Both the position numbers and the translations under genes were made by a program. Below the pieces are notes generated by a model. The model saw only the letters and a program-made list of their open reading frames with translations, searched no databases and was not told the DNA's origin. Positions 3 to 19,498 of a stretch of 37,761 bases of DNA are shown here, piece by piece (within the stretch, counting starts at the first letter, position 1; every line of letters begins with the position of its first letter). The DNA comes from an uncultured Myxococcales bacterium (GTDB lineage: Bacteria > Myxococcota_A > Polyangia > Polyangiales > Houyiibacteriaceae): contig CALCTH010000380.1 of assembly GCA_937893795.1 (NCBI GenBank), forward strand, positions 1 to 37,761. Reading direction: 5' to 3'.

Positions 3-1238
3 GACGGCTATGGCGAGCTGGTCGTCGCGTCCTTCGGCTTGGGTGACGTCTCGCCAAGTCGGGCCGGCGCCGTGTACGTGTTCCGAGGCGGCCCCGCGGG
101 GCCGGCCTCCACGCCCTCGCAGACCCTGCGCAGCCCGAATCCCGGGAGCACCGGCTTCTTCGGTTTGTCGATGGCGGCGGTCGGTGACCTGAACGGGGAT
201 GGCTATGGCGACCTCGCCATCGGAGCGCCGACGGAGGAAACCGACCTCTCCGTGACCGGCCGCGCCTACCTCTATCGCGGCGGTCCGGGCGGGCTCGTGG
301 GGGCGCCGCTACAGCTCGACACGACGCGCTCCTTCGCGAGCTACGGCTACGTCACCGCGCCCGGCGACCTGAACGGTGATGGCTTCGCGGACCTGCTCAT
401 CGAGGACCCCGCGTTCGAGGCCTATCTCTTTCTCGGGCGGGACCTGCCGACGGCGACGGCCGATACGACGCTGACGACGCCGCCGCTCACCGATCCCCTC
501 GCGCTCTTTCCCACCGGCGTCGGCGCCGCGGGAGACGTGGATGGCGACGGCCTTCCAGACGCGCTCGTCGGCGCCAGCCGCGGGACCACGGACGGCGGCC
601 TGGTCCTCGTCTTCCCCGGGGCGGCGTCCGGCCTCGAGACGATGCCGCGTGAAGAGCTCGAGGTGAACGAGGACTTCTTCGTCATGGCTCTCGCCGGTGG
701 CGACCTCGATGGGGACGGCTACTCGGACGCCCTGGTCTCCTCCCTTCGGCGCGTCAGCACGCGGCCCTTCGTCGTCGAGGAGCGCTTCCAGCTTCATCGC
801 GGTGGCGAGGCCGGGCTCCGCTCGGTCCCCGAGACGCTCCGCGAGGCACCGGAAGCCATGAGCCCCGGCTTCGGGAGCTCGCTCGCCGCGCCCGCCGACT
901 TCGACGGCGATGGGTTCCTCGATGTCGGGGTCGGCGGGCCCGGCTCGAATCAGGCCTTCGTCTACTTCAGCGACGAAGGCGGCCTCGCCGAGACGCCTCT
1001 CGTCTTGGACGAGCCGCCGGGCGTGCTGGGCCGCACCCGCTTCGGCCAGGCCGTCGCCAGCGTCGACGTCAACGGGGACGGACTGGCCGATCTCGTCGTC
1101 GGAGAGTTCGAGCGCGAGGGCCGAACGCACCTCTTTCTCGGCTCTGCCGAGGGCTTGAGCGACGCACCGAGTCTGACGCTCCAAAACCCCGACACGGGCC
1201 GCGACGGCGGGGGCTTCGGATTGGGGCTCGCGTACTGA
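3..1238 (+). CDS. FG-GAP repeat / integrin-alpha-like beta-propeller protein (5' truncated by window edge)
   Basis: Frame stays open to the window edge (DGYGELVVASFGLGDV...); repeated GDLNGDGYGDLAIGAP / DGDGLPDALVGA / DVNGDGLADLVVGE motifs; ends LTLQNPDTGRDGGGFGLGLAY*. Confidence 0.9.
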   Translation, partial: DGYGELVVASFGLGDVSPSRAGAVYVFRGGPAGPASTPSQTLRSPNPGSTGFFGLSMAAVGDLNGDGYGDLAIGAPTEETDLSVTGRAYLYRGGPGGLVGAPLQLDTTRSFASYGYVTAPGDLNGDGFADLLIEDPAFEAYLFLGRDLPTATADTTLTTPPLTDPLALFPTGVGAAGDVDGDGLPDALVGASRGTTDGGLVLVFPGAASGLETMPREELEVNEDFFVMALAGGDLDGDGYSDALVSSLRRVSTRPFVVEERFQLHRGGEAGLRSVPETLREAPEAMSPGFGSSLAAPADFDGDGFLDVGVGGPGSNQAFVYFSDEGGLAETPLVLDEPPGVLGRTRFGQAVASVDVNGDGLADLVVGEFEREGRTHLFLGSAEGLSDAPSLTLQNPDTGRDGGGFGLGLAY

Positions 1239-1250
1239 GGCAGGCGCGAT

Positions 1251-3425
1251 CTAGGGGGCGAGCCGCCGGACGAAGACGGAGCCTGGGCCATCGCCGGGCG
1301 CTCCCACGAAGAGATGGGTGCCGTCGCTCGCGAGCGAGGCGCCGAAGTGGGCGCCGGCGCTCACCGTCTCGGCCCGCAGGTAGAGCGGTGCATCGACGGG
1401 CACGCCGGCGGGGAGGGGGTAGAGGAAGACGGTCCCGTCGCCCGGCGTCAGGTCCTCCGAGCGAAGGCGGACGTCCACGCCGAGCGGACCCCCGTCCGCG
1501 AGCGGGTCGTCCGGACTGCCCGCCGCCAGGTAGTCGCCCACGCGGGCGAGCGCGGAGAAGCCAGACTCCGGTCGACGCAGCGACTGCAGCAAACGCGGTG
1601 GCCCCGCGAGGTCCTCTTCGAACGCCTCGATGCCTGGCTCCGACGCCGTCCGGCCCTGGGCGGTGAAGAGGCGGGGGCCATCGATGATGAGGGCCGTGAG
1701 CTCCGCGGAGACGCGGCCGCCGAAACGCACGCCGTCCACCGTCGACCCGATGAAGAGCGCGCCCGTCCCCGTCGCGATGGCCACGCCCCGACCTTCCACG
1801 TGGAAGGTCCGCGCATCGTCGAAGCCGCCGAAGCGTTGCCGCCGGCCCTCGGGGTCCACCACCTCGAGCTGGCGGGGTCCCAGGATCACCAGCCGACCCT
1901 CGGCGTCGAAGGCGAGGGCCTGCACGGAGCCCGAGGTCATGAGCCGTTCGGGGCCCGTCCACAGGCCGCGCTCTTCGCGGAAGACGTCCACGTAGGGGCG
2001 GTCGAATCCGCTCACCGCCACCTGCCCCGGCCGTGCCGCGAGGCGTTGGCCGTAGCGCTCGTTGCGGAGGGGACGGTCCGGCTGACGCAGCACCGCCTCG
2101 AGGGCCCAGCCTTCGCTCTCGCGCCGGTAGAGGTGAACGCCGCCGTAGTCGGCACCCACGTTCGGCGCGCGCGCGAGCTCCGGCGCCGGGGACACGCCCG
2201 CGAGAGGAAAGCCGTCGCCCGGCGCGCCGATGGCCACCAGGTCTCCGGCGACGGCCAAGGTGCTGCCGAAGAGCATCGACTCGTGGGAGCGCGCCGGCTC
2301 CAGCGTCGCTACTTCGATGTCGGCGCAAGTCAACCCCACGAGCGTTTCACAGGGGCTCTCCACGTTGCAGCGCCCGTCGACGCAGCGCTCGCCGCTCGCG
2401 CAGGCAAAGCCGCACGCGCCGCAGTTGCTCTCGTCCACGACGAGGGCGCCGCGGTCGATGCTGCCGTCGCAATCGTTGTCGAGGCCGTCGCAGACTTCCG
2501 CGCTCGGCTCGGAGGCCGTGAGCGGCCGGACCGCGCACACCCCCGTCGCGCAGGACTCGCAGCGGGAGCACGCGCGGTTGCAGCAGGTGCCTCCCTCGCA
2601 GCGATCCGAGGCGCACTGGGCGTTCGTGCGGCAGCTCTGCCCGTTGCCGCGCCCGGCACCGGGGATCGGTCGGCACCCGTCGCCGGGCTGGCAGAAATGG
2701 CCGGGGCCGCAGTCGGAGGGCACGAGCGTGAACAGGCACACCCCCGCGTCGCAGCGCCCCGTGGCGGCGCAGTCGGGCACCCCGGCGCGACACTCGTCGT
2801 CGAACGCGCAGGAAGCGGCGCCGCAGCTCGGCTCATCGCCACGCCTGCAGTCGCGGGGCACGCAGCGTCCGCCGAGGCAGCGCTGGGTGCCGTCGCAGCG
2901 CACGTCCTGGCAGCTTCGCGTGACGACGAAATCGATGCGCGGGCCCTCCGCGGGGTAGGCGACGGTCGACCGAATCGTGCGCGCGTCGTCGAGCGGCGAG
3001 ACGAGCTCGAGCTGGAGGAAGCCCACGTTGGCGCCGAGCAAGGTGTCGGGGAAGATCGCGATGCGCTGGGCGGCGTTGGCCCAGTCGCGGCGCGGGTCGA
3101 AGCGCTCGGTCGTCAGCGGAAAGAGGCGGCGGTCGCTCGTATCGCGCACGAAGAGCCGAAGCTCGTCGAACTCCGCGCCGGGCAGCAGGTCCGTCCGCAG
3201 GAAGACCTCGACGGTTTGCGCGGGTTGAGGCCGCGGCGCCGGATCACACGCCGCGAGCAGCACGAGAGCCACGAGCATCGACGCGGCCGCGACGCTCGAC
3301 GCGGGAGCGCGCGTGGGCGTTGCGAAGGGGGTCCCTCGCGCTCCGCCGTGCCTGACCTCTGGTCCCATTCGCGCCACCTCCGCGAGCGAGTATACCCGGC
3401 GTTCCATCGGCGGTGCCGAGGTCAT
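1251..3425 (-). CDS. Large putative lipoprotein with Cys-rich MopE-like region (CDGLDNDCDGSIDRG) and C-terminal beta-propeller-like repeats
   Basis: 724-aa ORF; hydrophobic segment plus lipobox-like ASMLVALVLLAACDP; Cys-rich central region; FGSTLAVAGDLVAIGAPGDG-type repeats; true start may lie downstream of 3425. Confidence 0.85.
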   Translation of the reverse strand: MTSAPPMERRVYSLAEVARMGPEVRHGGARGTPFATPTRAPASSVAAASMLVALVLLAACDPAPRPQPAQTVEVFLRTDLLPGAEFDELRLFVRDTSDRRLFPLTTERFDPRRDWANAAQRIAIFPDTLLGANVGFLQLELVSPLDDARTIRSTVAYPAEGPRIDFVVTRSCQDVRCDGTQRCLGGRCVPRDCRRGDEPSCGAASCAFDDECRAGVPDCAATGRCDAGVCLFTLVPSDCGPGHFCQPGDGCRPIPGAGRGNGQSCRTNAQCASDRCEGGTCCNRACSRCESCATGVCAVRPLTASEPSAEVCDGLDNDCDGSIDRGALVVDESNCGACGFACASGERCVDGRCNVESPCETLVGLTCADIEVATLEPARSHESMLFGSTLAVAGDLVAIGAPGDGFPLAGVSPAPELARAPNVGADYGGVHLYRRESEGWALEAVLRQPDRPLRNERYGQRLAARPGQVAVSGFDRPYVDVFREERGLWTGPERLMTSGSVQALAFDAEGRLVILGPRQLEVVDPEGRRQRFGGFDDARTFHVEGRGVAIATGTGALFIGSTVDGVRFGGRVSAELTALIIDGPRLFTAQGRTASEPGIEAFEEDLAGPPRLLQSLRRPESGFSALARVGDYLAAGSPDDPLADGGPLGVDVRLRSEDLTPGDGTVFLYPLPAGVPVDAPLYLRAETVSAGAHFGASLASDGTHLFVGAPGDGPGSVFVRRLAP

Positions 3426-3638
3426 CGACAGACGGGCGGATCAGCCCAGCCGCGTCCGCGTCCGCGGCGTCTCGCTCCGCCGTCGCCGCGTCGACGGTCC
3501 CGTCGTCATGGGAGGCGCACACGAGGGACGACGAGAAGAGCCATGCGAGCGCGAGACGACGCAGCACGACGACCAGTCCATGCCTGCCGTAGCGAAGGGC
3601 CAAGAGGAGGGGCGATACTGATTGAGCGGGCCCTTCGG

Positions 3639-4607
3639 ATGACGCTCTCCGAAAATCCACTCTTCGTGTACCAGCACCGCCGTCACGGGAAGCGGACACT
3701 CGTCGGTGCCGTGTGCCTCGCCGCGGCGGTCTCGTGTGTCGGGAACGGACCAGCGCCCCCGCCGCAGACGCCAAACCAACGACGAAGCGAGCTGCGGTCC
3801 GCCGGCCTGTGTCAGTTCTCCGGCGACCCGGCACCCGCGCGGTCGGTCGACGCGCTTCGCCGCCGCGTGGACGGACTCTTGCGGGTCCCGCCGACCGATG
3901 TCGGTGCGTTGGCGTGTGAGCTCATCGGTTTGGCGGCGTCTTCGCCGTGCGGCGTCGGACAGCACGGCTTCAGTCAGTTCTATTTGGATACCCCGCCCGA
4001 GGTCGTGATGGACATCATCGGTGGTCTCGATGACGCCTGCAGCATCGAGCGGACCTATCTCAGCCTTGGGCGGCAACGCCTCGATGTGCTCGCAGGGGAG
4101 GCCCCGGCGGTGGACGCGGAGCGTGCCCTCGGAGCTTGGAAGGCCCTTCTCGACGAGGCGGCCGCGGACGCGTCGTGCCCGCCAGATGAGCGGTGGCCCG
4201 AGCGTGCCGCGGTGCACGCTGCCGTACGCTTTGCCTCCGACGTGATGACCACCTGGTCCCGCCTCGTGTGCGAGGACGCTGCCGTCGCCTGCGATGTCAG
4301 CGGGATGAACGGAACCGTCAGCATCGTCCCCGGTCCGTTGGACGAAGAGACGCTAGGCGCCGGGGCCGGACTTTGGTCGTGCGCGCTCGTCCCGTCGTCC
4401 GCCGACTCGTGCGCTCGACACGACCTCGCCAGTTGGCCGGAGACCCTCGCCGCGATGGCGCGGGGAATCGCCTTAGCCGACCGCTCAAATCTCCAGGACC
4501 CCAGGCTCGTGGCGATGGGTAACCACCGGCGAATGGACCTCTACGTCGTCGCGCGTGCCGGAAGGGTATGGGTCGTCGACAGCTTTGGTTCAGGATGGGA
4601 CCAGTAG
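3639..4607 (+). CDS. Hypothetical putative lipoprotein
   Basis: In-frame ATG at 3639 within the longer open frame 1314-4607; MTLSENPLFVYQHRRHGKRTLVGAVCLAAAVSCVGNG signal/lipobox-like start; upstream part of that frame is antisense to the 1251-3425 gene. Confidence 0.7.
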   Translation: MTLSENPLFVYQHRRHGKRTLVGAVCLAAAVSCVGNGPAPPPQTPNQRRSELRSAGLCQFSGDPAPARSVDALRRRVDGLLRVPPTDVGALACELIGLAASSPCGVGQHGFSQFYLDTPPEVVMDIIGGLDDACSIERTYLSLGRQRLDVLAGEAPAVDAERALGAWKALLDEAAADASCPPDERWPERAAVHAAVRFASDVMTTWSRLVCEDAAVACDVSGMNGTVSIVPGPLDEETLGAGAGLWSCALVPSSADSCARHDLASWPETLAAMARGIALADRSNLQDPRLVAMGNHRRMDLYVVARAGRVWVVDSFGSGWDQ

Positions 4608-4644: not shown

Positions 4645-7600
4645 TTACGCCGTGATCGCATTCCCGCGGAAGATGCGGGCCAGGTAGCGGCTCTCCTTTG
4701 GGCTCGGCGCCGGGACCGCGCACTGGAGCACGGCGGCGACCATGCGCTTCCGCTCCTCGGCGACCTCCGCCTCGCTGCCCGGCTCCTCGGCGCGGGCGCG
4801 GCGGGTGAGCTGCACCTGGTTGATGGCCGGCATGGTCGGAAGTCGCTCGCCTTCGACGCCGAGCGTGACCGTGAAGGCGTGGAGCGTGTTCTTGGTGAAG
4901 AGCGCCAGGCCGAACTCCTCGCGCGTCGAGGCGCGCGAAGTGGAGGGCGTGAGCAGCACGATCTGACAACGTGGGATGAGCGCCGCGACCTTGGCGATGC
5001 GGAAGTGGTGGGTGATCTGGTCGCGCATCAGCGCGGCGAAGTCGTCGCGGGAGAGCACCCGGTCCCAGCGCCCGTCGTCGGCCGCGAGCGCGTTCAGCGG
5101 CAGCCGCTCGAAGGGCGTCGAGACCACCACGTCGACCTGGCCGAGCGCGAGGTGCGCGTCCTTCAGCCCCTGCTCCACGTCGTCGCCGCAGGCGTGCAGG
5201 CTGAGAATCACGTTCGGGTCGAGGCTGAGCCGCGTGCGCAGCGTATCGAGCGTCTCCTGCGAGCGCGCGACCACCGCCAGCGCCTTCACGCCCTGGCCGA
5301 TGAAGCCCTTGGCGATGTCCACGAGCTCCTCACGCATCGCGTCACCGAGAAGCACGACGGTGCGCCCCGCGAGCTGCGAAAGGTCCTCCTGCCCCGGCGA
5401 GAGCATCAGCTCGCCCTCCGTCACCGAGCGCTCGAACTTCAGGCCGCCCGAGGGGTGGAAGGTCTCGCCGCTGACGATCTCGTCGGCCAGGTGGAAGACC
5501 GTGGCGATGCCCACCTGCTCGTCCGTCGGCATCTTGTGCAGATGCAGCCGGTCGAGGATGCCGGCCTCGATCTTCTCCGCCGCCGCCTTCACGTCCTTCG
5601 TGTCGAAGAAGGGGCTCGGCGGCTCCACGAACTTCTCGAGGAAGCGCGCCTTCGCCGCCCGGTCGATGACGCCCGAGCCCACGAGGCGATCGGCGAGCTT
5701 GGGCGCGTTGTCGCCGCTGACCAGGAAGCGCGAGGACACGGCCTGCGCCCGGCCCTCGCGCACCTTGTCGAGGAGGCGCCGAATGGGCTTCGGCGCGTCC
5801 GGCCACTCGCCGAGGTCCTCGAGCTCGTTGAGCGCGAGGCGCTCGAGGTACCCGGCCACGTCGGCCCCCTCCGCGTGCGCGTTCAGCAGCGCCTCGTGCA
5901 CCACGTTCAGGCGCTTGTTCTCGAGGATCAGCCGCCCCCGTCGCTCGAAGAGCCCGGGCGCGCCCTGGAAGCCGCGGAGCCGCGCGCCATCGACGGGACC
6001 GGGCGCCAGCGCGTTGATCTGAATCTCCGGACCGAGGTGCCGCGAGAGGATCTCCGCCAGCGCGCGCTGCCCGGCCTTCGACACCGAGTAGTCGGCGCGG
6101 TTCGGGTAGGCCACGGCGAGGTACTTCTCGCCACCGAAGTAGCTCGACACGTTGAGAATGTGCCCGTTGCCGTGCGCCTTCATGCTCGGCGCGAACTTCC
6201 GGATGAGGCTGTAGTTGCTGATGAGGTTCGCTTCCTGGGTCCGGTTCCAGGCCGCGAGGCTCATGTCGACCACCATCTCCTCGGCGCCGCTGATGCCCGC
6301 GTTGTTGATGAGAAAGTCCACGTGGCCGAAGAGCTCCATCGCGTGGTCGTGGAGCCGCTGGAGCGCCGCCTCGTCGCCCACGTCCACGCCGCCGCAGGCG
6401 AGCCCGCGCCGCCCGGGCTCGCTGACGCCCACGCCCCGGCGCCCGTCGACGATCTCCTGCCGCGCACCCGCGAGCCGCTCTTCGTTGCGCGCGCTGATGA
6501 GCACGCGCGCGCCGGCGATCGCCAAAAAACGCCCGAGCTGGTAGCCGATGCCGAGGCTGCCGCCGGTGATGACCGCCGTCTTGCCCTGGTGCAGGCCGGG
6601 CAGGACGCGCTGAATGGACAGGGGCATGTCGGACTTGCCCGTCGCGCGCTCGATGGCCTTCGGCACCCAGAGGTTGATGGCGTCCATCTTCCGGACGCGG
6701 CCCGTGAGCGTGGCCGACCAGTCGGCGCTGAAGGCGAGGTTGTCGGCCTCGTCGTTGTCGAAGCGGACGAGCTGGTTCGGCAGGCAGCTCCAGGGGCGCT
6801 TGCCCTCGCGCACCGCGTGCTGCTCTTCGGCGCGCCAGACGCGAAGCAGCGCCTCCACCGCCGCGCGCTTCACGTCGTTGAGCAGGTTGCCCTTCCCGTC
6901 GTTCGGGTTGGTCACGAAGGTGACCGCCGGCGCCCGGTCCAGGTTCTTCCAGCGCATCAGGCGCCGCGAGAGCCCGGCGGCGAAGGCCACGGGGCCCACG
7001 ACCTCGCGGCGGATGAAGTCCTCCACGTCGGCGTCCTCGGCCGTCGAGAGCGCGTGGCCGTGCTCGCCGTTCGCGCACTGCGGGAGCACCACCACCCCGT
7101 CGAGGCGCCCGTAATGGTCCTCCATGAAGCGAAGGCCCCGCTCCACGGTCTGGGGGATCAGCGGGTCGAGATGCAGCAGCCGGTAGGGCCCAGCGTTGGT
7201 CGCCTGGATCCGGCCGCGCGCGCGGCTGTAGCCGTCGAGGCTGCGGAAGGCCACGGCGACCTCGGCGCCCCGCTCGCGGCTCCGCTCGGCGAAGGCGAGC
7301 GCCTCCTCGATGTCGCTCCCGCCGAGCACGAGCACCACGCGATCGTTCAGGTCGATCATGCGGTTGTCGGGCCAGGACACGAGCTTCGAGCGGCTCTGGG
7401 CCGGCACCTGCATGCCGTTGGTCACCTCGAAGGCGTGCCCGCTGAAGGCGATGGACTCGTCGGAGGCCAGGAAGGTGATGGCCCCGGCCACGTCGTCGGG
7501 CTTCGGGTAGCGCAGGGCAAGCGCGTCGTCGGTGCCGGGCCGCGTGTGCAGCATGAGCTCGCGGAAGTGTGCCGAGGTCGTGCCCGGCGTCTGGCCCTGG

Positions 7601-8292
7601 AGCTGGTCCATGGCCGCGAAGACCGTGTCGATGCGCTCGGACTCGATGGGCCCGGGGAAGACCGTGTTCACGCGCAGGCCCTGGTGCCCGCGGCCGAGCT
7701 CGCGGGCGAAGCCGAGGCTGAGCGCGTTGAGCCCGGACTTCGGCACCACGTAGGGGATGCGCCCGAAATAGGCCGTGCGGCTGAAGATGGTCGAGACGTT
7801 GATGATCGACCCGTTCACGCTCATGTGCGGCGCCGCCGCGCGCGTCATGTTCCAGGGCCCGCCGAGCAGGTTCATGGCCGCGGCGAACATCGTCTCCGTC
7901 CCCGCGTCCCGCGCGTCGTCCTCGGTGATCGGAATGTGCGGGAGCGTCGTCTTCGGTCCGGCGCCACCGGCGTTGTTCACCAGCACGTCGAGGCGCCCGA
8001 AGGTCTCGAGCGTGGCCTGCACCACCTGGCGGCAGGCTTCCGGGTCCGCCGCGTCGCCTACGCGCGCGTGGATCTTCGCCCGGTCGAAGCCCTCCTGGGC
8101 CAGCGCGTCCGCGAAGGCGTCGAGCTTGGCGCCGTTCCGCCCCGTCATCACCACCTTCGCGCCCTCCCGAAGGAGCTGGCGCGAGATGAAGGACCCGATG
8201 TTGCCCGCGGCTCCGGTCAGGATGACCACGCGGTCCTTCAACCGCGCGCCCCCGCGCGTCTGCGTCTCTCCCAGCGTTCCGTCTGCGCTCAT
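4645..8292 (-). CDS. mcr: Malonyl-CoA reductase (bifunctional, multi-SDR, 3-hydroxypropionate forming)
   Basis: 1215 aa from ATG at 8292 with GAGGGAACGAAGACG upstream. Two active SDR modules: TGAAGNIGS...GRIPYVVPKSGLN (YxxxK) and TGGSLGIGY...NRADYSVSKAGQR (YxxxK). Colinear with remembered C. aurantiacus Mcr, including INVSTIFSR, NTVFPGPIES, NLISNYSL, NVSSYFGGEK, LGPEIQINALAPGPV, GRLILENKRLN, VSGETFHPSGGL, LTRRARAEEP and terminal ARIFRGNAITA. Confidence 0.92.
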   Translation of the reverse strand: MSADGTLGETQTRGGARLKDRVVILTGAAGNIGSFISRQLLREGAKVVMTGRNGAKLDAFADALAQEGFDRAKIHARVGDAADPEACRQVVQATLETFGRLDVLVNNAGGAGPKTTLPHIPITEDDARDAGTETMFAAAMNLLGGPWNMTRAAAPHMSVNGSIINVSTIFSRTAYFGRIPYVVPKSGLNALSLGFARELGRGHQGLRVNTVFPGPIESERIDTVFAAMDQLQGQTPGTTSAHFRELMLHTRPGTDDALALRYPKPDDVAGAITFLASDESIAFSGHAFEVTNGMQVPAQSRSKLVSWPDNRMIDLNDRVVLVLGGSDIEEALAFAERSRERGAEVAVAFRSLDGYSRARGRIQATNAGPYRLLHLDPLIPQTVERGLRFMEDHYGRLDGVVVLPQCANGEHGHALSTAEDADVEDFIRREVVGPVAFAAGLSRRLMRWKNLDRAPAVTFVTNPNDGKGNLLNDVKRAAVEALLRVWRAEEQHAVREGKRPWSCLPNQLVRFDNDEADNLAFSADWSATLTGRVRKMDAINLWVPKAIERATGKSDMPLSIQRVLPGLHQGKTAVITGGSLGIGYQLGRFLAIAGARVLISARNEERLAGARQEIVDGRRGVGVSEPGRRGLACGGVDVGDEAALQRLHDHAMELFGHVDFLINNAGISGAEEMVVDMSLAAWNRTQEANLISNYSLIRKFAPSMKAHGNGHILNVSSYFGGEKYLAVAYPNRADYSVSKAGQRALAEILSRHLGPEIQINALAPGPVDGARLRGFQGAPGLFERRGRLILENKRLNVVHEALLNAHAEGADVAGYLERLALNELEDLGEWPDAPKPIRRLLDKVREGRAQAVSSRFLVSGDNAPKLADRLVGSGVIDRAAKARFLEKFVEPPSPFFDTKDVKAAAEKIEAGILDRLHLHKMPTDEQVGIATVFHLADEIVSGETFHPSGGLKFERSVTEGELMLSPGQEDLSQLAGRTVVLLGDAMREELVDIAKGFIGQGVKALAVVARSQETLDTLRTRLSLDPNVILSLHACGDDVEQGLKDAHLALGQVDVVVSTPFERLPLNALAADDGRWDRVLSRDDFAALMRDQITHHFRIAKVAALIPRCQIVLLTPSTSRASTREEFGLALFTKNTLHAFTVTLGVEGERLPTMPAINQVQLTRRARAEEPGSEAEVAEERKRMVAAVLQCAVPAPSPKESRYLARIFRGNAITA

Positions 8293-8320
8293 CGTCTTCG
8301 TTCCCTCTCGCAATAGCCGA

Positions 8321-11300
8321 TCAGCGCAGCGTGCTGGCGGAGCCGGTATCCCGGCGGGTGACGGCCTCACCGCGCGCCTCGGCGTCGCGGATGGCCCAGG
8401 CCTGGTAGAGCTCATCGCGGGTCTTCAGCCCGAGCCGCGGCAGCCCGTGCGTGAACACGTAGGTCGCGCCGGCGTGGCGGTTCTCCCACATGGCCTGATG
8501 GGCTTCGGCTACGCCGTCCCAGTCGACGGCCGTGGCCTCTACGATGTCGAGGCGCCCCGCGGCGACGCGGGCCTGCACCTCGGCGAACTCGCGCGCCGTG
8601 TTCAGGTGCGTGCCGCGGATCTCGGCCGTGGGCATGAGCACGCGGCGCTGCCGCATCCACACCTGTGGCGCGTAGAAGCTCAGGCGGCGCCCGCCGAGGT
8701 CCTCGGCGTACACGACCACGCCGGTGTTTGGTTTGACGAGTGAGGTCGAGAGCCCGAGGCCGTCGCGGCCCGCGCGCTCGAAGACCACGTCGGGCAGCCC
8801 GCGCTTGTCGAGCGGCGTCCGCAGCAGCGGCGCGATGGCCGAGCCCACGGGCTTGAGGGTGCGGTCGCTGAAGCTCCGAACGGCCTCCTTGAAGGCCGGC
8901 GAGTCCTCGAAGGCGTTCGGCAGCGTCATGAAGGGCCCGGGCGGGTCGAAGTCGTCGCCGAAGCGGCGCCGAAGCTCTTCGACGCTCACCACGCCGCCAA
9001 GCGCGCTCCCGAAGCCGAGCGAGGTCACCAGCTCGCGCTGGGGGATCGTGTCCGTGAGCACGGCGACCTTGGCCCCGAGGCCGCAGCCGATCTCGATGGC
9101 CTCGATGGCCACCGGGTCCACGATGCCGTCCTCCGCGCCGGGCCCGTAGATGACGAGGAAGCTCTTGCCCGCGCTCAGCCGCGCGCGCTGGAGCATGGCC
9201 CGCGGCGTCTCCTTGCCCGCCTTGCCGAGGAAGCTGAAGCGGTAGCCGCTCGACGCGCCGAAGAAGGTGAGCACGCCGCCGGGGCTCAGGAGCTGGAAGC
9301 TGCGGCTGAAGGCACGCTCGCCGGCGTGGCTCACGGCGTAGTCGACGGGGCCGTTCTTGCGTACGTCGGCCACGAAGTCCGCGCCGGCCTGCTCCCAGGC
9401 AGCCCATTCGCTCGCGTCGTCCGGGACCGGCGTGAAGATGGAGGCCCAGCGCGGGTCCTTCCGGTTCACGGGCTGGCCGCCGTAGCTGCGCACGCGCTCC
9501 GCACGCTCCTCCGAGCTGACCATGCCCACCACGTCGAGGCCCGTAGCCCGCGCGCCGCGGAGGCACTCGAGGCCCGTGCCCGTCGACGCGCCCTCCACGA
9601 AGAGGCGCTTGCCCGGCTGGATGTCGAGCGTGGTGAAGAGCGCGCGGTGAATGGTGCCCGCGTTGAGCCCGTAGGAGCCCGCCTCTTCGAGGGTCTGGCT
9701 CGCGAGCTTCTTGTGGAGCTGCGGCCCCTGCACCGTGAGGAACTGAGCGTGGCTCCCGTCGTTCCGCTCGTAGCCCTGAATGCGGAAATCGGCGGCCATG
9801 GGGTCGAGGCCCTGGTCCGGGCTCATCAGCTCGCTCTGGCCCGAGTAGATCGTGACTAGGTCGCCCACGCTGATGCGGCCTTCGCGAACGAGCTCCTCGC
9901 CGAGGCGCACCACGAGCGCGCAGCCGCCGGAGCCCGTGACGTGCACGTCGACGTCGCGCGGGTCGAAGGGCGAGACGGGGATGCCGGTGATGGCCCAGAT
10001 GTCGTTGTAGTTGATCTCGCTCGCCAGCATGAAGACGAGCGCCTCGCTCGGGCCGGGCTCCGGCGTGGGCACCACGACGAGCTTCTCGGCGTCCTTCGGG
10101 TCGCCGTGCGCCGGCGCGGCCGTGGTCGGGTCGCGCGGCACGCCGAGCGCGTACATGTAGGGCGGCACCGGCGTGACCCCGGGGTAGAAGCCGCGCGCGA
10201 GCGGGATCAGGTGGCCCGCCTCCTCGAGCTCCTGGCGCGTGGCCTCGTCCGCGTCCGGCGGGAAGGCGGCTTTGCGAAGCGGGAGCGGCGCGCTCCGCCG
10301 CTCGAGGAAGGCGCGAATGCCGACGGGCCCGGCGTCGGGGTCGACGATGGCGTCGGCGAAGGCTTTGCCCTCGGCCGCGAGGCCCGCGGTCTGGCCTTCG
10401 GCGAGCCCGGTCTCGAGCGCGGTGAAGATGCGCGCAACGGCGCTGCCCCGACCGTTGGCTTCGGCCTGGGCGATGGGCGCAGCGAGCGGCGTCCGGAGAT
10501 CCGGCGCGGCGATGGGTTGCTCGAGCCCCTCGAGGTAAGCGGCGCGCGCTTCCATGGCGGCGACCAGTGGCCCTTCGCCGTCGAGGTAGCTCCGGAGCAC
10601 GGCCACGGCGCGCTCGACGGGCGCTTCGGCGACCTCGTCGATCAGGCCGACCTCGAGGGCTTCGCGCGCCTCGAGGCCGCGGCCGTCGAGGATCATGCGG
10701 GCGGCGCGCACGACGCCGGCGTCACCGTGCTTGGCGTGCAGGCGCCGGGCCAGGCGCTGGGTGCCGCCATAGCCCGGGAGCAGGCGGAGGTTGATCTCCG
10801 GCTGCCCGAAGCGTGCGCCCGGGTCGGCCACGGCGTAGCCGCAGGCGAGCACCAGCTCGTTGCCGCCACCGAGCGCGGGTCCGTTCACCGCCGCGATGAC
10901 GGGCTTCGGCCTTCCGTCGGCGTCGCGGAGCCCCTCGAGCAGACCGAAGGCGGTCTGCGCGGCGTTCGGCAGCGTCTGGGCGCTGTCCCGGTCGCCGGCC
11001 TCGCCGACCTCCATCAGCTCCTTCACGTTGGCGCCGGCCACGAAGGCCTTGCCCGCGCCGGTCACGACGATGCCCACCGTCGAGGCCTCGCGGCCGATCT
11101 GGTGGAGCATGGTGTGCAGCTCGTCGAGCGAGCGCTCGTTGAGCGAGTTCACCGGCGGCGCGTCGATGACGACGAGCGCGAGGTATTTCCCGGTGCCCGA
11201 TCCCGCCGCAGTCTTCAGCTCGTGGCGCTCGACGCGGAGGTAGCGCGTGCGCTGCACGATCTTGCGCGCCTCGGCGAGCTGCCCGAACGCGCGCCAGGCC

Positions 11301-13738
11301 TGCACGGCCTCGCGAATCTCGCCGACGGACTCGGGGTTCCGGAGCGTCGAGGTGTCGCCGAGGGGCAGGTCGAGGAGCAGCGCGCGGAGCGTGCGCCGCA
11401 TGTACTTGCCCGAGCGCGTCTCCGGGAACTGGCTCACGACGAGGAAGTCGCTCGGGACGGCGGTGACGCCCTTCTCCGTGCGGACGAGGCCCTTGAGCCG
11501 CGCCAGATCGTCGTCGCTGATCTTCGCGCCCGGCGCGGGGATGACGAAGGCGATGGGCGTCTCGCCCTGCTGCTCGTCCGGCGCCCCGACGACGACGGCG
11601 TTGCCCACGGGGGAGTCCGGCCGAAGCACCTTGTCCCGGAGAATCGCGCCCTCGATCTCCTCGGTGCCGATGCGGTGGCCGGAGACGTTGATGACGTCGT
11701 CCGAGCGACCGTGGAGCGTGAAGGCGCCGTCCTCGTGCTGCCGCGCGTAGTCGCCCTGCGTGTAGGTGAAGCCGCCGGACCACTTGTCGAAGTAGACCTC
11801 GGTGAAGCGGCCCAAGTCGCCGCGCCAGGCGTCCGTGCCGAGCTTGTCCGCGTCGCCCCAGATGGTCTTCGCGAGGTAGGGGTAGGGCTTCGTGACGACG
11901 AGCTCGCCCTTCTCGCCGGGCTCGGCCTGGCGCCACTCCGTCGCGCGGCCGGCCTCGTCGCGGGCGGTGGCGACGCGCACCTCGGCGTCGATCCACGGGA
12001 GCGGCCAGGTCTTGGCGTCGGCCTGCAGGTCGAAGACGTCGCCCCAGGGGCAGGTGAAGACGACGCCGCCGTGCTCCGTGGCCCAGTAGGAGTTGATGTA
12101 GCGCTGGCAGACCTCGTCCATGGCGAACTGCTGCACGGCGGGGCTGACGGGCTCGGCGCAGAAGGTCGCGACCTTGAGCGACGACATGTCGTAGGCGGAC
12201 ATGTCGGCGGTGGACGCGGGGTCGGTCATGACCGACTTCAGGAAGGTGGAGCCGGCCTTGAAGATGGTCGCGCCGTGCCGCGCGATGATGGAGCTGAAGC
12301 GCCCGGCGTGCGGGAAGAGCGGCGAGCCCTCGGCGACGATGGAGGTGATGCCCATCGCGAGGGGCGCGCCGATGAGATAGCTCTGACCGGTGATCCAGCC
12401 CGGGTCGGCGATGACGTAGAGCCGGTCGCCCTCCTCGGCGCCGAAGACGGTGCGCATGGTGTGCGCGACGCCGCTCAGCCAACCGCCGTGGCCGTGCACG
12501 ACGCCCTTCGGCTTCCCGGTCGAACCCGAGGTGTAGATGATGAAGCAGGGCCAGTCGGAGCCCACGGGCAGCGCCGGGTGCGTGGCCGCGAGCGCGGCGT
12601 AGAGCGCGCGGTCGTCCAGCGCCTCCGTCTCGGGCGTGAGCACGGCCTCGCGGGCGGCCGCCACTAGGTCGTGGGACCACCGGTCGCGGGGCTGCACGAC
12701 GATGTCCTGCCCCGTGTAGCGAATGACGACGACGGTCTCGACGTCGTGCGTGGCCTCGGCGAGCGCGCGGGCGACGGCGGTGCGGACCTCGGCGCTCCGC
12801 TCGGCGGTGATCCCCTCTTCGGCGCGGAGCCCCTTGCCGAGCTCGCGCATCACGTCCGAGCGCTCGACGGTGATCTCGCCCGCGAGCGCGTCGGACACCT
12901 GGGCCGCGAGGCGCGCGGCCGCGTCCCCGAGGCCCTTGCCCTGCAGCACCTGCTCCAGCGCCGCGAGCGCCGTCGGCCGCGGGATGAAGTTGTCGAGGGC
13001 GACGTCGGTGAAGCGCTCCTTGTAGGGAACGACCTCGGCGTTGCGGTATCCGCCGTCGGCGGTGACGACGATCTTGGCGCCGGCGTCGTAGATGCGGTCG
13101 GAGAGCGTCTTGGCGCTGAAGCCGCCGAAGACCGGCGTGTAGATGATGCCGAGGCGCTTGGCCGCCTCCGTGTAGTAGAGCTGCTCGAGGATGTTCGGCA
13201 GGTTGAAGGCGACGCGGTCGCCCTTGCCGAGGCCGAGGCGCGTGAGCACTTCGGCGCGCACGATCGTCTCGACGAAGAGCTTCCGGTAGCTGACCGTCTC
13301 CTCGACGACGGGGCCCCCCTTGCCGCCGTTCTTGGAAGGGTCCCAGCGGTCGCCCTCGAAGAGGAACGCGGCCTTCTCGCCGTGGCCGGCCAGGAGGTGC
13401 CGGTCGACCTCGTTGAAGCAGGCGTTCGTCTGCGCGCCGACGTACCAGCGATAGAAAGGAGCGTCCGCGTCGTCGAAAGCTGTCTCCCAAGGGCGCCAGT
13501 CGCTCGCCGGCGCGTCCGTGGCCGCCTCGCCCGTCGCCGCGTCGAAGCCGCTCCACGCGCCCGTGAGGGGATCCCGCCGCCACCAGGCCTTCCGCGCATC
13601 GTCGTACCAATGGAGCTCGGCGGACGCGATGTCGCCGTGGAACGCCCCGGGATCACTCAGGGCTTGGGAGCGCGCATCGCTCTCGTGCTCGGCGCTCGAA
13701 AGGCGCCCAAAGATCTCCGTGCCCGCTCCGTCGGCCAT
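8321..13738 (-). CDS. pcs: Propionyl-CoA synthase, trifunctional (3-hydroxypropionyl-CoA synthetase / dehydratase / acrylyl-CoA reductase)
   Basis: 1805 aa with GAGGAGC RBS. AMP-binding motif YTSGSTGKPKGVVHG (~12537-12493) and Acs-type C-terminal lysine motif PETRSGKYMRR (~11428-11396); crotonase-fold segment NGPALGGGNELVLACG...GQPEINLRLLPGYGGTQRL (~11240-10280); MDR/crotonyl-CoA-reductase-like domain EINYNDIWAITGIPVSPFD...EGASTGTGLECLRGA...GGRRLSFYAPQVWMRQRR...AHQAMWENRHAGATYV...LPRLGLKTRDELYQAW (~10190-8321). Full-length colinearity with remembered Chloroflexus Pcs. Confidence 0.94.
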   Translation of the reverse strand: MADGAGTEIFGRLSSAEHESDARSQALSDPGAFHGDIASAELHWYDDARKAWWRRDPLTGAWSGFDAATGEAATDAPASDWRPWETAFDDADAPFYRWYVGAQTNACFNEVDRHLLAGHGEKAAFLFEGDRWDPSKNGGKGGPVVEETVSYRKLFVETIVRAEVLTRLGLGKGDRVAFNLPNILEQLYYTEAAKRLGIIYTPVFGGFSAKTLSDRIYDAGAKIVVTADGGYRNAEVVPYKERFTDVALDNFIPRPTALAALEQVLQGKGLGDAAARLAAQVSDALAGEITVERSDVMRELGKGLRAEEGITAERSAEVRTAVARALAEATHDVETVVVIRYTGQDIVVQPRDRWSHDLVAAAREAVLTPETEALDDRALYAALAATHPALPVGSDWPCFIIYTSGSTGKPKGVVHGHGGWLSGVAHTMRTVFGAEEGDRLYVIADPGWITGQSYLIGAPLAMGITSIVAEGSPLFPHAGRFSSIIARHGATIFKAGSTFLKSVMTDPASTADMSAYDMSSLKVATFCAEPVSPAVQQFAMDEVCQRYINSYWATEHGGVVFTCPWGDVFDLQADAKTWPLPWIDAEVRVATARDEAGRATEWRQAEPGEKGELVVTKPYPYLAKTIWGDADKLGTDAWRGDLGRFTEVYFDKWSGGFTYTQGDYARQHEDGAFTLHGRSDDVINVSGHRIGTEEIEGAILRDKVLRPDSPVGNAVVVGAPDEQQGETPIAFVIPAPGAKISDDDLARLKGLVRTEKGVTAVPSDFLVVSQFPETRSGKYMRRTLRALLLDLPLGDTSTLRNPESVGEIREAVQAWRAFGQLAEARKIVQRTRYLRVERHELKTAAGSGTGKYLALVVIDAPPVNSLNERSLDELHTMLHQIGREASTVGIVVTGAGKAFVAGANVKELMEVGEAGDRDSAQTLPNAAQTAFGLLEGLRDADGRPKPVIAAVNGPALGGGNELVLACGYAVADPGARFGQPEINLRLLPGYGGTQRLARRLHAKHGDAGVVRAARMILDGRGLEAREALEVGLIDEVAEAPVERAVAVLRSYLDGEGPLVAAMEARAAYLEGLEQPIAAPDLRTPLAAPIAQAEANGRGSAVARIFTALETGLAEGQTAGLAAEGKAFADAIVDPDAGPVGIRAFLERRSAPLPLRKAAFPPDADEATRQELEEAGHLIPLARGFYPGVTPVPPYMYALGVPRDPTTAAPAHGDPKDAEKLVVVPTPEPGPSEALVFMLASEINYNDIWAITGIPVSPFDPRDVDVHVTGSGGCALVVRLGEELVREGRISVGDLVTIYSGQSELMSPDQGLDPMAADFRIQGYERNDGSHAQFLTVQGPQLHKKLASQTLEEAGSYGLNAGTIHRALFTTLDIQPGKRLFVEGASTGTGLECLRGARATGLDVVGMVSSEERAERVRSYGGQPVNRKDPRWASIFTPVPDDASEWAAWEQAGADFVADVRKNGPVDYAVSHAGERAFSRSFQLLSPGGVLTFFGASSGYRFSFLGKAGKETPRAMLQRARLSAGKSFLVIYGPGAEDGIVDPVAIEAIEIGCGLGAKVAVLTDTIPQRELVTSLGFGSALGGVVSVEELRRRFGDDFDPPGPFMTLPNAFEDSPAFKEAVRSFSDRTLKPVGSAIAPLLRTPLDKRGLPDVVFERAGRDGLGLSTSLVKPNTGVVVYAEDLGGRRLSFYAPQVWMRQRRVLMPTAEIRGTHLNTAREFAEVQARVAAGRLDIVEATAVDWDGVAEAHQAMWENRHAGATYVFTHGLPRLGLKTRDELYQAWAIRDAEARGEAVTRRDTGSASTLR

Positions 13739-14601: not shown

Positions 14602-16542
14602 CTACGGCGCGACGCTCACGCCGAAGCTCTGGGCGTCGGGCGCGGTGCGGGGGTTTTGCAAGGTGAGCGTCGGGGGGCTGCTCACGCCTGCCGGCCCGCC
14701 CAGGAGTAGGTAGGCGCGGCCGGCGCGGATGGCCTGGCCGATGAGCAGGTCCGCGAAGCCGTCGCCGTTCGTGTCCGGCGTGCTGACCGCAGCCGGGTAG
14801 GCGCCGGAGCTCTCGCGCGGCAGGCGGAGCTCTTGGGCATCGGCGGCCAGCCCCGTCTCGCTTCCGAGGTAGAGGAAGACCGCCTCATCGCTCCGCACGA
14901 GGCCGAGGCCCACCACCACGTCGAGGAATCCGTCGCCGTTCATATCGGCCGGCTCGGCCAGCGTGCCGCCGAAGAGGTCGATGTCGAAGAAGCGCCGCGC
15001 CTGGCGGGCGCTGGTCGGGGTCGCCGCGGCGCCCTCGGTCCCGCCGGCGTGAAGCAGCAGACGCCCCGGTTGCCGACCAACGCCGTCGCTCCCCGGTGAG
15101 CCCACGAGCACGTCGGAGAGCCCGTCCAGGTCGAGGTCGCCACCCGCCAGCGCGGCGCCGTAGCGGGCGCGGAGCCTGCTCTCCGCGTCGTCGCGCAGCG
15201 TCACCGTGGCCGTGGCCGCCAGGCCCGAAGGGCTGCCGCGAAAGAGCAGCACTTCGCCCTCACCCTCGAAGATCTCGAAGAAGCCCACGGCCACGTCGGG
15301 AAAGCCGTCGCCGTCCACGTCGCCGGGGCCGCCGACCGAGGCGCCGAAGCCGGGGTTCCCTTCGTCTTCGGGGGGCGCACGCAGCGTGACGGCGGGCGTG
15401 CTCGCGATGCCGCTCTCGCCTCCGAGGTAGAAGAAGACCTCGCCTTCGCCGTCGCGCACGACGAGGTCGGCGAAGCCGTCGCCGTTCACGTCGCCGGGCG
15501 CCACCACGCCGCCGAAGGCGCCTGCGAGCAGGGGCCGAGGCGGTTCGAGCGCGACCGGGGTGCCCGTCGGGCCCGGCGGTCCGCCGAGCACCACGTAGGC
15601 CCGCCCGGCCACGAGCCGTCCCGTCAGCTCGCCCTCCGCACCGATGGCGAGGTCGCCATAGCCGTCGCCGTTCACGTCGCCGAGCGCGGCGATCGAGAAC
15701 CCGAAGACGCCGAAGGCGACGGCGTTGGGCGAGGCAAGCTCCACGTCGGGGCGCGTCCCGGGGCCGTCGGGGCCGCCCAGGTAGATGAAGACCGCGCCTC
15801 CCGCGACGTCGCTCGAGGCCGCGGCCTGAAAGGGCGCCCCGATGCTGAGGTCACCGTAGCCGTCACCGTTCAAGTCGTGGCGCGACCGGCCCACCAGCAG
15901 ATAGCGGGCGCCCGAGAACGCGCCGCAGCCATCGGGCCGACAGGCGGCGACGCGCCACACGTAGCGGCGGCCCACGGGCGGCGTTCGGTCGACGGGCAGT
16001 GGACGCGCGGGGCGTGCGCGCAGCACCTCGCCGGCCGACGTGGGCTCGCCGGGCAACTCCTCGTCCACCTCGGGACCCTCGAAGTCGCACGCTCGCCAGG
16101 GGCCGGCCGTGCACGCGGCCATCTGCACGCGGTAGCTGGACGCGCCGGCGACGGGCAGCCAGGTGAGCCAGGGACGAAGCGGCGCCGTGGCCACGCCGTC
16201 TTCCGCGTGCACGCTCCCGGTCAGCGCACCGAGCGCAGGCGCGCGCAGCACCGGCGCCGGCGGCGGGGGCCCGAGGTCCACGGGCACGTCGGGCCCGACG
16301 TCGATGGGGCCTTCGTCGAGGCCGGCGTCCACGAGGCCCACATCGACGGGCCCCGCCTCCACCGTCCCGCCGGCGTCATGCGGAAGATCGGCCGCCCGCG
16401 CGTCCGGTACCCCCGCGTCGTCCGTCCCGTCGGGGCTCGGCCGGCCGTCGACCAGCGAGCGGAAGCAGCCGCTCGCGAGGGCAGCCAGCGCCACCAGAAG
16501 GGCGGCGACGGAGCGTTGGCGCCACGGGCGCGGCGGGGGCAT
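14602..16542 (-). CDS. FG-GAP repeat putative lipoprotein (paralogue of the gene at 3-1238)
   Basis: 646 aa; LVALAALASGCFRSLVDG lipobox; repeated LNGDGYGDLSIGAP / VNGDGFADLVVRD / MNGDGFLDVVVGL; C-terminus LTLQNPRTAPDAQSFGVSVAP resembles the first gene. Confidence 0.92.
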   Translation of the reverse strand: MPPPRPWRQRSVAALLVALAALASGCFRSLVDGRPSPDGTDDAGVPDARAADLPHDAGGTVEAGPVDVGLVDAGLDEGPIDVGPDVPVDLGPPPPAPVLRAPALGALTGSVHAEDGVATAPLRPWLTWLPVAGASSYRVQMAACTAGPWRACDFEGPEVDEELPGEPTSAGEVLRARPARPLPVDRTPPVGRRYVWRVAACRPDGCGAFSGARYLLVGRSRHDLNGDGYGDLSIGAPFQAAASSDVAGGAVFIYLGGPDGPGTRPDVELASPNAVAFGVFGFSIAALGDVNGDGYGDLAIGAEGELTGRLVAGRAYVVLGGPPGPTGTPVALEPPRPLLAGAFGGVVAPGDVNGDGFADLVVRDGEGEVFFYLGGESGIASTPAVTLRAPPEDEGNPGFGASVGGPGDVDGDGFPDVAVGFFEIFEGEGEVLLFRGSPSGLAATATVTLRDDAESRLRARYGAALAGGDLDLDGLSDVLVGSPGSDGVGRQPGRLLLHAGGTEGAAATPTSARQARRFFDIDLFGGTLAEPADMNGDGFLDVVVGLGLVRSDEAVFLYLGSETGLAADAQELRLPRESSGAYPAAVSTPDTNGDGFADLLIGQAIRAGRAYLLLGGPAGVSSPPTLTLQNPRTAPDAQSFGVSVAP

Positions 16543-16976: not shown

Positions 16977-17744
16977 TCAGCGGTTCACGATGTCCAGCAT
17001 CAAGAGGCGCCGGTCGACGGCCGTCCGCGTGGTGCGTGCCGGGGGCGCTGCCGCCGTGCTGGGCACCGCGCCCGTGATGAGCGCGCGTTCCAAGCGGAGC
17101 GACTCCTGTCGCCGCAGCGCAGCCTCGGCGCGGGCGACCTCGGGAAGCGCCGCCGGCTCCTCCGCCGCGCCTTCGCGCCCGGCACCGTCCCTCACCGGGC
17201 GCGGCGCCGCTCCCTCGGACGCGGCGGCACGCTCCCGGAGGCTCGCGACGAGCGCTTGGAGCTCGGCGACCTCCTGCTCGCCCTGCTCGATCTGCTCCGT
17301 GAGGTGCCGGACGAGCTCGCGCTGCGCGTCCTCCTGCTCCTTCAGCGTCTCGGCCGTCTCGCGCAGGGCGTCCCGTTGCTCCGTGGAGACCGCGTCGCTG
17401 TCCGCCACGAAGCGCAGATAGAGGCGCCGCGACTCGAGGCTCGGGATGTCCCAGGCGCCCTTCACCACGCTTGCGAGGTCGACGGTCACCTGGTGCTTCA
17501 GGTCGAGACGATGCGCCGTCTCCAGGCGCTCTTGCTCGAGGCTGGAGGACACGAAATTGAAGAGGGTAGCCAGCACCGTGCCGACCAGCGTGACCAGGCC
17601 GACGGCGACGGGTGATTGCCACCAGGGAGCCTTCCCTTCCTTTGGCCCGCGCTCCATGAGCCTCGCGGCCACCGCGTCCACGAGCCGGTCCACCTCCGGT
17701 CCGGGCTCCGGCTCGGGCGTGGGTCGCTCGTCGAGCATCGTCAT
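16977..17744 (-). CDS. Single-pass membrane protein with cytoplasmic or periplasmic coiled coil
   Basis: 255 aa from ATG at 17744 (ATGA overlap with upstream stop 17741-17743); TM segment WWQSPVAVGLVTLVGTVLATLFNFVSS; long Glu/Gln/Arg-rich helical region LRETAETLKEQEDAQRELVRHLTEQIEQGEQEVAELQALVASLRERA. Confidence 0.82.
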   Translation of the reverse strand: MTMLDERPTPEPEPGPEVDRLVDAVAARLMERGPKEGKAPWWQSPVAVGLVTLVGTVLATLFNFVSSSLEQERLETAHRLDLKHQVTVDLASVVKGAWDIPSLESRRLYLRFVADSDAVSTEQRDALRETAETLKEQEDAQRELVRHLTEQIEQGEQEVAELQALVASLRERAAASEGAAPRPVRDGAGREGAAEEPAALPEVARAEAALRRQESLRLERALITGAVPSTAAAPPARTTRTAVDRRLLMLDIVNR

Positions 17745-19498
17745 GACGGCACCTCCACCTTCAGCCAGTCCTTCGGACCGATCAGCGTCGGCCGCTGCGG
17801 ATAGCCCATGCGCGAGACGCGCGTCGCCACCGACCGAGCCACCGCCTCGTAGCTTTTGGCCCGGCCCTGACGGAGCGTCCTCGCGAGGCTCCACGTGAAC
17901 GCCCCGTAGGTCTGCGCGCCCACGCGGTGCTCGTAGGCGAGCTCCCGTTCGCGGCAGGCGTAGAAGAGCAGCGGCATGTAGGGGCCGTAGTGATTCCGGC
18001 GCTCGCGAAGCACGTCGTAGGTGTCCTTCGGGAGCTGGCGCACGTGGCGCGCGAGGCCCACGCGCCGCGTGGAGGGCGGCGCGCTCACCTTCGGTACGTA
18101 GACCTCGGCCTGCGCCGGGAGCCGCGGCTCCCAGCGGCCCCTGTCGTCCCACTGGAGCATGCGGTGCCGGATGTCGTCCGGCGCCTCGAGCCCCCGCGCG
18201 CGCACGGCGCCGTTGCGGGTCATGCCACCGGAATGACAGCAGTCGAAGATGGCCAGGAACTGCGCGTCGTAGGGGAGCTGCGCGTAGAGCCGGTAGAAGT
18301 CCGAGTCGACGACGGCGCGCTCGAGGGTCCAGTCGAAGTCGAAGGGCACGAGGCACTCGTCGACGCGGTCGATGGTCTCGAAGGTCCCGTAGCCGGGAAG
18401 CTGAGCGCCGTGTCCGCTGAAGTAGAGGATGCGCTGGTCACCCGGCTGCACGCCGTGAAGCAGCCACTCGATGCGTTCCCAGATGTTGGCGGCGGTGGCG
18501 CGACCGTCGAGGAGCACGCGCATGTTCTCCGGCTCGAAGCCCCGCTCCTGGAGCGCCTCGCTCATCAGGAAGACGTCGTTCTTGCAGCCGGCGAGTCGCA
18601 TCGCGTCGTCCGGATACTCGTTGATGCCCACCAGCAGCGCGCGGCGCTTCGGCACGACCCGGCGGGCGATCCCCGCGACCTTCACCTCACGGGACGCGGG
18701 AGCGCTGAGATCGCCAGCCACGACCTGGCGGCGGGCGTTCGCCTGGGGCCCGATGAGCAGGGGCCAGACGTCGTCGCTCGCCTTCGCGTGCCGAAAGTAG
18801 GACTCGGCGCGATGGTCGGCGCCGGCGCCGCGCGCGTCGAAGGGCGTGACCACCTGCACGAAGTTGGGCGCGGCCGGCAGACGCACCGGCGCCGTGAAGA
18901 CGCCATCGTGCGGGTTGTACTGGTGGAGCCAGAGGCGCGCCTGGTCGAGGGGCTGGATCCGCCCGCCCATGAACTGGCCCACGACGAAGTGGTTGCCGAT
19001 CTGGGAGCCGACGCTGAGGAACGACCGCTCGCCCACGAGCGAGGGGTCCATCGTGAAGGCGTCGTACGCGATGAGGGAGCCCATGCTGTGACCGATGACG
19101 ACGTCGGGTGTCGTCTCGGCGATGCGCGCGGCCAGCCGGTCCCGCAGCTTCGCCCGGAAGGCGTCGTCCTCGACCCACTTCACGACCATGCCCGCCGACC
19201 AGCGCAGGCTCGTCCTCACGTCGCGGCCAAAGCGGCCCCGCGACCCCAAGGCGCCGCGGAGGCCCCCCGCCACCAGCTTCGCCAGCGCCTCCATGGCGTC
19301 GAGGAAAGAGACGTCGACGTCCTCGAAGAGGTCGTCGTAGTGGACGAAGTCGACGCTCACGTCGTCGGGCGCGTGGCCCGCGCCGGCCACGCCTTCGCCG
19401 ATTGCGTCCCTCCAAAGCCCTTCCCAAGGCCCGCCTGGCTCGTGGCGGTTGATTCCGTGAATCGCCAAGATGCGCGTCGATGTCATCGCCCCCTCCAC
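17741..19498 (-). CDS. Alpha/beta-hydrolase (lipase-like) - caspase-family (peptidase C14, metacaspase-like) fusion
   Basis: N-terminus ILAIHGINRHEPGG...DVVIGHSMGSLIAYDAF (GHSMG nucleophile elbow); C-terminus RRALLVGINEYPD...LRVLLDGRATAANIWERIEWLL...ILYFSGHGAQ (His) ...FLAIFDCCHSGGM (Cys); alternative start at 19486. Confidence 0.9.
   Translation of the reverse strand: MEGAMTSTRILAIHGINRHEPGGPWEGLWRDAIGEGVAGAGHAPDDVSVDFVHYDDLFEDVDVSFLDAMEALAKLVAGGLRGALGSRGRFGRDVRTSLRWSAGMVVKWVEDDAFRAKLRDRLAARIAETTPDVVIGHSMGSLIAYDAFTMDPSLVGERSFLSVGSQIGNHFVVGQFMGGRIQPLDQARLWLHQYNPHDGVFTAPVRLPAAPNFVQVVTPFDARGAGADHRAESYFRHAKASDDVWPLLIGPQANARRQVVAGDLSAPASREVKVAGIARRVVPKRRALLVGINEYPDDAMRLAGCKNDVFLMSEALQERGFEPENMRVLLDGRATAANIWERIEWLLHGVQPGDQRILYFSGHGAQLPGYGTFETIDRVDECLVPFDFDWTLERAVVDSDFYRLYAQLPYDAQFLAIFDCCHSGGMTRNGAVRARGLEAPDDIRHRMLQWDDRGRWEPRLPAQAEVYVPKVSAPPSTRRVGLARHVRQLPKDTYDVLRERRNHYGPYMPLLFYACRERELAYEHRVGAQTYGAFTWSLARTLRQGRAKSYEAVARSVATRVSRMGYPQRPTLIGPKDWLKVEVPS

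Follow-up and report, generated by a model that had tools for sequence, protein, structure and literature searches.

Results

Organization of the operon

The window, which denotes the entire 37,761-nucleotide stretch of DNA that was analyzed, carries an intact predicted two-gene pcs-mcr operon on its minus strand. The first gene, pcs (8321-13738, minus strand), encodes a complete predicted propionyl-CoA synthase of 1805 residues (trifunctional), and the second, mcr (4645-8292, minus strand), encodes a complete predicted malonyl-CoA reductase of 1215 residues (bifunctional) when read from the ATG at 8292. Direct reading of the sequence revealed an intergenic gap of 28 bp (8293-8320, minus strand), a Shine-Dalgarno-like GAGAGGGA ahead of the mcr ATG (8309-8302, minus strand), and a Shine-Dalgarno-like GAGGAG ahead of the pcs ATG (13749-13744, minus strand). 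The longest mcr ORF begins at 8415 and overlaps pcs; the ATG at 8292 is the predicted start that fits the homologues, which do not support the extension to 8415. Third-position GC was 0.95-0.96 in both ORFs, a strong coding signal, and a scan for sigma-70 promoters returned no match.

The predicted Pcs is a single chain of ∼1800 amino acids that combines an ACS-type 3-hydroxypropionyl-CoA ligase, an enoyl-CoA hydratase, and an MDR-type enoyl/acrylyl-CoA reductase in that order (Pfam domains AMP-binding, ECH_1, and ADH_zinc_N). Residues 12-1786 matched PDB entry 6eqo, which we take to be Pcs although the depositors' title reads only "acetyl-CoA synthetase", with a score of 1911 bits, far above chance. 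Alignment with relatives from Woeseiaceae, Halieaceae, Chloroflexota, Erythrobacter, and Gemmatimonas revealed that the ligase has kept the ACS phosphate loop, the A8 hinge, and the A10 catalytic Lys (ETRSGKYMRR), that the hydratase has kept both crotonase Glu residues, and that the reductase has kept its nucleotide-binding loop.

The predicted Mcr is of the ∼1220-residue type, with N- and C-terminal SDR halves that can be aligned end to end with solved Mcr. Full-length matches were obtained to PDB entries 8hi4 (1031 bits) and 8hjw (958 bits), both far above chance and both presumably Mcr (the depositors' title is only "SDR"), and the protein also matched the separately solved enzyme halves 8hi5 and 8hi6. 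The alignment indicated that the glycine-rich NADP motifs and the Ser-Tyr-x3-Lys motif are kept in both active SDR domains. No NCBIfam model spanning the whole of Pcs or the whole of Mcr was among the matches listed. Because solved Pcs and Mcr were matched over their full length, unrelated multi-SDR or PKS-like proteins are ruled out. The first-pass annotation had described two adjacent minus-strand ORFs, pcs and then mcr on the coding strand, separated by 28 bp, and had assigned them to these two enzymes; the arrangement is present as claimed, and the assignment is supported by homology over the full length, by the intact catalytic motifs, and by gene order.

Phylogeny and gene order

A Pcs scan that used one genome per species covered 84,980 species, and 80 Pcs loci were kept. 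The nearest Pcs sequences were those of a Woeseiaceae MAG (72% identity), Pseudohaliea rubra (71%), and Luminiphilus syltensis (69%), with Chloroflexus and Erythrobacter Pcs at ∼53-54%. The corresponding Mcr values were 65, 65, and 64%, with 43-47% on the Chloroflexus/Erythrobacter side. The Pcs, Mcr, and concatenated trees were congruent, placing the window at the base of a Halieaceae/Woeseiaceae clade and outside Halieaceae; support for the clade including the window was 100 in each of the three trees. The window sits on a long end branch (0.35-0.42), so its position inside the clade is approximate. By these trees, both genes are of the gammaproteobacterial type (Halieaceae OM60/NOR5 and Woeseiaceae) rather than of the Chloroflexus or Erythrobacter type, and a Chloroflexota origin is ruled out.

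Where the flank was long enough, mcr in most loci lies directly after pcs on the same strand (Halieaceae, Woeseiaceae, Sphingomonadales, Rhodopila, and Gemmatimonadota); mcr is upstream of pcs in a few Chloroflexales loci and is not nearby in the Chloroflexus loci. Among 16 loci compared, further neighbors were common only to three close Halieaceae. Because the other neighbors differ between loci, pcs-mcr behaves as a two-gene module. The first-pass annotation had noted reported homologues in a few marine proteobacteria; the range of the pair is wider, with adjacent pcs-mcr also in Gemmatimonadota, Rhodopila, and many Sphingomonadales. Occurrence of the bi-cycle outside Chloroflexota has been reported (PMC9802188).

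Five Pcs loci on long branches (L090, L061, L062, L063, and L101) had no Mcr in the flanks examined, and there Pcs possibly serves 3-hydroxypropionate breakdown. Plasmid carriage of the pair was considered and rejected, as no PLSDB plasmid had an Mcr at E 1e-80 and Pcs was confined to haloarchaeal megaplasmids. Full-length Pcs of ∼50% identity was present on plasmids of Natronococcus sp. CG52, Natrinema zhouii, and Natribaculum; on the N. zhouii plasmid, a B12 mutase and MeaB are encoded near pcs, which suggests 3-hydroxypropionate use without Mcr.

Genomic context and origin

Around the operon are genes for FG-GAP proteins, a hybrid kinase, a caspase-domain protein, and lipoprotein-like proteins whose MopE-type motifs are weak; none of the adjacent genes is a lipid or polyketide gene. 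FG-GAP repeat proteins encoded at 3-1238 (plus strand) and 14602-16494 (minus strand) bracket the operon. A clean duplication of these two genes was rejected, given that they are only 44% identical and in opposite orientation. The ORF at 1314-4607 (plus strand) is probably spurious, being antisense to a better-supported gene at 1251-3278 (minus strand). The 549-residue product of 17741-19390 (minus strand) combines a caspase-like Peptidase_C14 domain at residues 248-536 with an N-terminal region whose GHSMG motif resembles that of lipases/hydrolases; the next gene on the same strand (16977-17744) encodes 255 residues. At 31219-32055 (plus strand) there is an HTH regulator with a DUF4423-like C-terminus, of which more than 10 weakly similar copies (27-36% identical) occur in another genome (G041).

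The host genome comprises 6.42 Mb in 738 contigs, with an estimated completeness of 92% and contamination of 3.9%, and the window is its contig 380. With that degree of contamination and fragmentation, and with no second Pcs-bearing genome among those searched in the phylum, the contig might be a binning contaminant from a high-GC gammaproteobacterium or another organism; we regard this as very improbable. The GC content of the window (71.6%) fits the bin, and its tetranucleotide profile correlates with the other contigs at 0.84. The operon itself correlates with the bin at 0.77; the corresponding values were 0.717 ± 0.045 for the bin's other 9-kb pieces and 0.21-0.62 for loci taken from different organisms. 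Third-position GC is alike in the operon and its flanks, and genes in the flanks have relatives in genomes of the same family and order, one of them also having a 48% identical copy on another contig of the bin. All of these properties argue against contamination.

A search with the Pcs reductase region detected Pcs in only one of 284 genomes of the phylum (189 genera), namely this one, and none of 57 near relatives had a full-length Pcs. Among the papers searched, none names 3-hydroxypropionate, Myxococcota, and propionyl-CoA synthase together, and Myxococcota are not mentioned in the text of PMC9802188. The pair is thus of a known enzyme kind, in a phylum where no prior report and, among the genomes sampled, no other Pcs was found. 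Such rarity, together with a position within a gammaproteobacterial clade, suggests that this lineage received the genes by transfer, and horizontal transfer is the likely origin of the operon here; the tree alone would also fit the opposite direction. Insertion by a visible mobile element was rejected, because no tRNA, Rfam family, integrase, or flanking direct repeat was found at the locus.

Carbon metabolism of the host

The first-pass annotation had proposed a genome search for acc/pcc, mutase, and mct genes. Such a search located accA, accD, and a PccB/MmdA-type carboxyltransferase (a propionyl-CoA-carboxylase-type subunit, 819 bits), but neither a clear methylmalonyl-CoA mutase nor Mct. 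Contig 219 (L121:3720-11406) carries an operon for a B12 mutase, MeaB, crotonyl-CoA carboxylase/reductase (ccr), and an acyl-CoA dehydrogenase (mcd), with a RamB-like regulator divergent alongside. The ccr product scored 495 bits against TIGR01751 (cut-off 379) and matched PDB entry 4gi2, and among solved structures the acyl-CoA dehydrogenase came closest to 6es9 (full length, 536 bits) and to the methylsuccinyl-CoA dehydrogenase 8ciw. The operon is predicted to encode the core of the ethylmalonyl-CoA pathway. Its mutase is probably ethylmalonyl-CoA mutase by operon context, as the sequence did not separate the two mutase types. The genome has two PF01642 genes, this mutase and an IcmF, and besides these no clear methylmalonyl-CoA mutase was found in the 92% complete genome. 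With the ethylmalonyl-CoA operon present, the pcs-mcr pair is not the sole possible route from acetyl-CoA to C3/C4 compounds. A near-complete ethylmalonyl-CoA pathway is also reported for Ca. Houyibacterium (SG8_38) (PMC10576062).

Isocitrate lyase was not found in the host genome; in the same search 18 of 58 genomes matched, some weakly. The genome has only two CoA_transf_3 genes, neither of which matched the Mct model (their best models were succinate-glutarate transferase-like), and PufLM was not found. At a completeness of 92% and with 738 contigs, the genome gives these absences little weight. Without isocitrate lyase, Mct, or PufLM among the genes found, a complete 3-hydroxypropionate bi-cycle is unsupported, and the earlier caution that full autotrophy cannot be claimed was right, as Mct was not found. 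PufL/M-type reaction centers are described for several Polyangia families in PMC10576062, a study that checked the 3HP bi-cycle (KEGG M00376) and whose accessible passages report only CBB cycles. A 9.2-Mb genome of the same family (G005) has two PufL/PufM-type genes.

Discussion

By the established chemistry of the Mcr and Pcs families, conversion of malonyl-CoA to propionyl-CoA costs three NADPH and one ATP to AMP. In the route that we propose, acetyl-CoA carboxylase would make malonyl-CoA, Mcr would convert it to 3-hydroxypropionate with 2 NADPH, and Pcs would activate, dehydrate, and reduce this intermediate to propionyl-CoA, using CoA, ATP (to AMP), and 1 NADPH; one bicarbonate per acetyl unit would be carried into the C3 unit. 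Alternatively, external 3-hydroxypropionate could be the input. The propionyl-CoA would be used anaplerotically or for biosynthesis, with bicarbonate co-assimilated with acetyl units during heterotrophic growth. Propionyl-CoA carboxylase and a mutase would give succinyl-CoA, a step for which no clear methylmalonyl-CoA mutase was found. Enzyme activity and expression, which way the operon was transferred, the flux, and what becomes of the propionyl-CoA are all inferred here.

Most likely, the pair channels malonyl-CoA, and with it fixed bicarbonate, into propionyl-CoA that serves anaplerosis or mixotrophic co-assimilation. More fully, we consider it probable that a myxobacterium, very probably a polyangian one, horizontally acquired a Halieaceae/Woeseiaceae-type operon that would convert malonyl-CoA to propionyl-CoA for anaplerosis or biosynthesis, with heterotrophic bicarbonate co-assimilation or the use of external 3-hydroxypropionate. 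An anaplerotic route from acetyl-CoA would be useful to a cell in which no isocitrate lyase was found. Against the anaplerotic reading stand the lack of a clear methylmalonyl-CoA mutase and the ethylmalonyl-CoA pathway, which already offers an alternative acetate route.

Propionyl-CoA could instead be mainly a building block (for odd-chain or methyl-branched lipids, or as a polyketide starter or extender) or the pair an NADPH sink. Myxobacteria are rich in polyketides, and propionyl-CoA may not reach succinyl-CoA if the mutase is truly missing; however, a PccB-type carboxyltransferase is present, a mutase can be hidden by the incompleteness of the genome, and the surroundings of the operon are devoid of lipid and polyketide genes, and we consider this alternative unlikely. 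The operon might also belong to a complete autotrophic cycle, either the 3-hydroxypropionate bi-cycle or the 3HP/4HB cycle, the rest of which was missed in the fragmented genome, seeing that Mcr and Pcs are two key enzymes and that an HP/HB cycle has been claimed in Luminiphilus of the Halieaceae (PMC9802188), whose Pcs and Mcr share the clade of the window. The bi-cycle needs Mct and SmtAB, however, and neither of the two CoA_transf_3 genes fits the former; PufLM was likewise not found, and we judge a full cycle to be highly improbable. For Actinobacteriota, such enzymes have been proposed to function in the assimilation of organic substrates, for example acetate, propionate, and 3-hydroxypropionate (PMC9802188).

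A bolder and more tentative possibility is that, in this non-phototrophic myxobacterium without a glyoxylate shunt, the native ethylmalonyl-CoA pathway and the acquired Mcr-Pcs bypass meet at propionyl-CoA, and together could fix a substantial amount of inorganic carbon while the cells grow heterotrophically, perhaps as predators. To our knowledge, such a combination in a non-phototrophic myxobacterium has not been described.

Mcr and Pcs serve as markers of carbon-fixation potential. Their occurrence as a compact, apparently transferred operon of a heterotrophic myxobacterium suggests that having both genes need not by itself mean autotrophy and that pcs-mcr may behave as a portable module. 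With this locus, bicarbonate co-assimilation in Myxococcota can be tested on a concrete case, and biochemists gain a sister sequence that branches at the base of the Halieaceae/Woeseiaceae enzymes.

Among known systems, the phototrophic Myxococcota of PMC10576062 very probably belong to the same phylum as the host, whereas the genome of the window shows no PufLM. The Chloroflexus bi-cycle enzymes have the same domain architecture and catalytic motifs as those of the window, with Pcs ∼53-54% identical (the Mcr of a Chloroflexaceae MAG is ∼45-47% identical), but Chloroflexus mcr is not beside pcs and its bi-cycle gene Mct was not found in the host genome. Erythrobacter/Porphyrobacter have the same proteins and gene order as the window and provide the structures 6eqo (Pcs), 6k8s, and 6k8v, yet their enzymes are only ∼53% (Pcs) and ∼43% (Mcr) identical to those of the window and form a separate clade. 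The window lies outside Halieaceae on its own long branch, in a host of another phylum with a GC content of 71.6% and with no PufLM found. The Halieaceae (Pseudohaliea rubra, Luminiphilus syltensis, and HTCC2080) and the Woeseiaceae MAG nonetheless share the gene order, short gap, and gene lengths of the window, and their enzymes, 60-72% (Pcs) and 59-65% (Mcr) identical to its own, join it in one well-supported clade.
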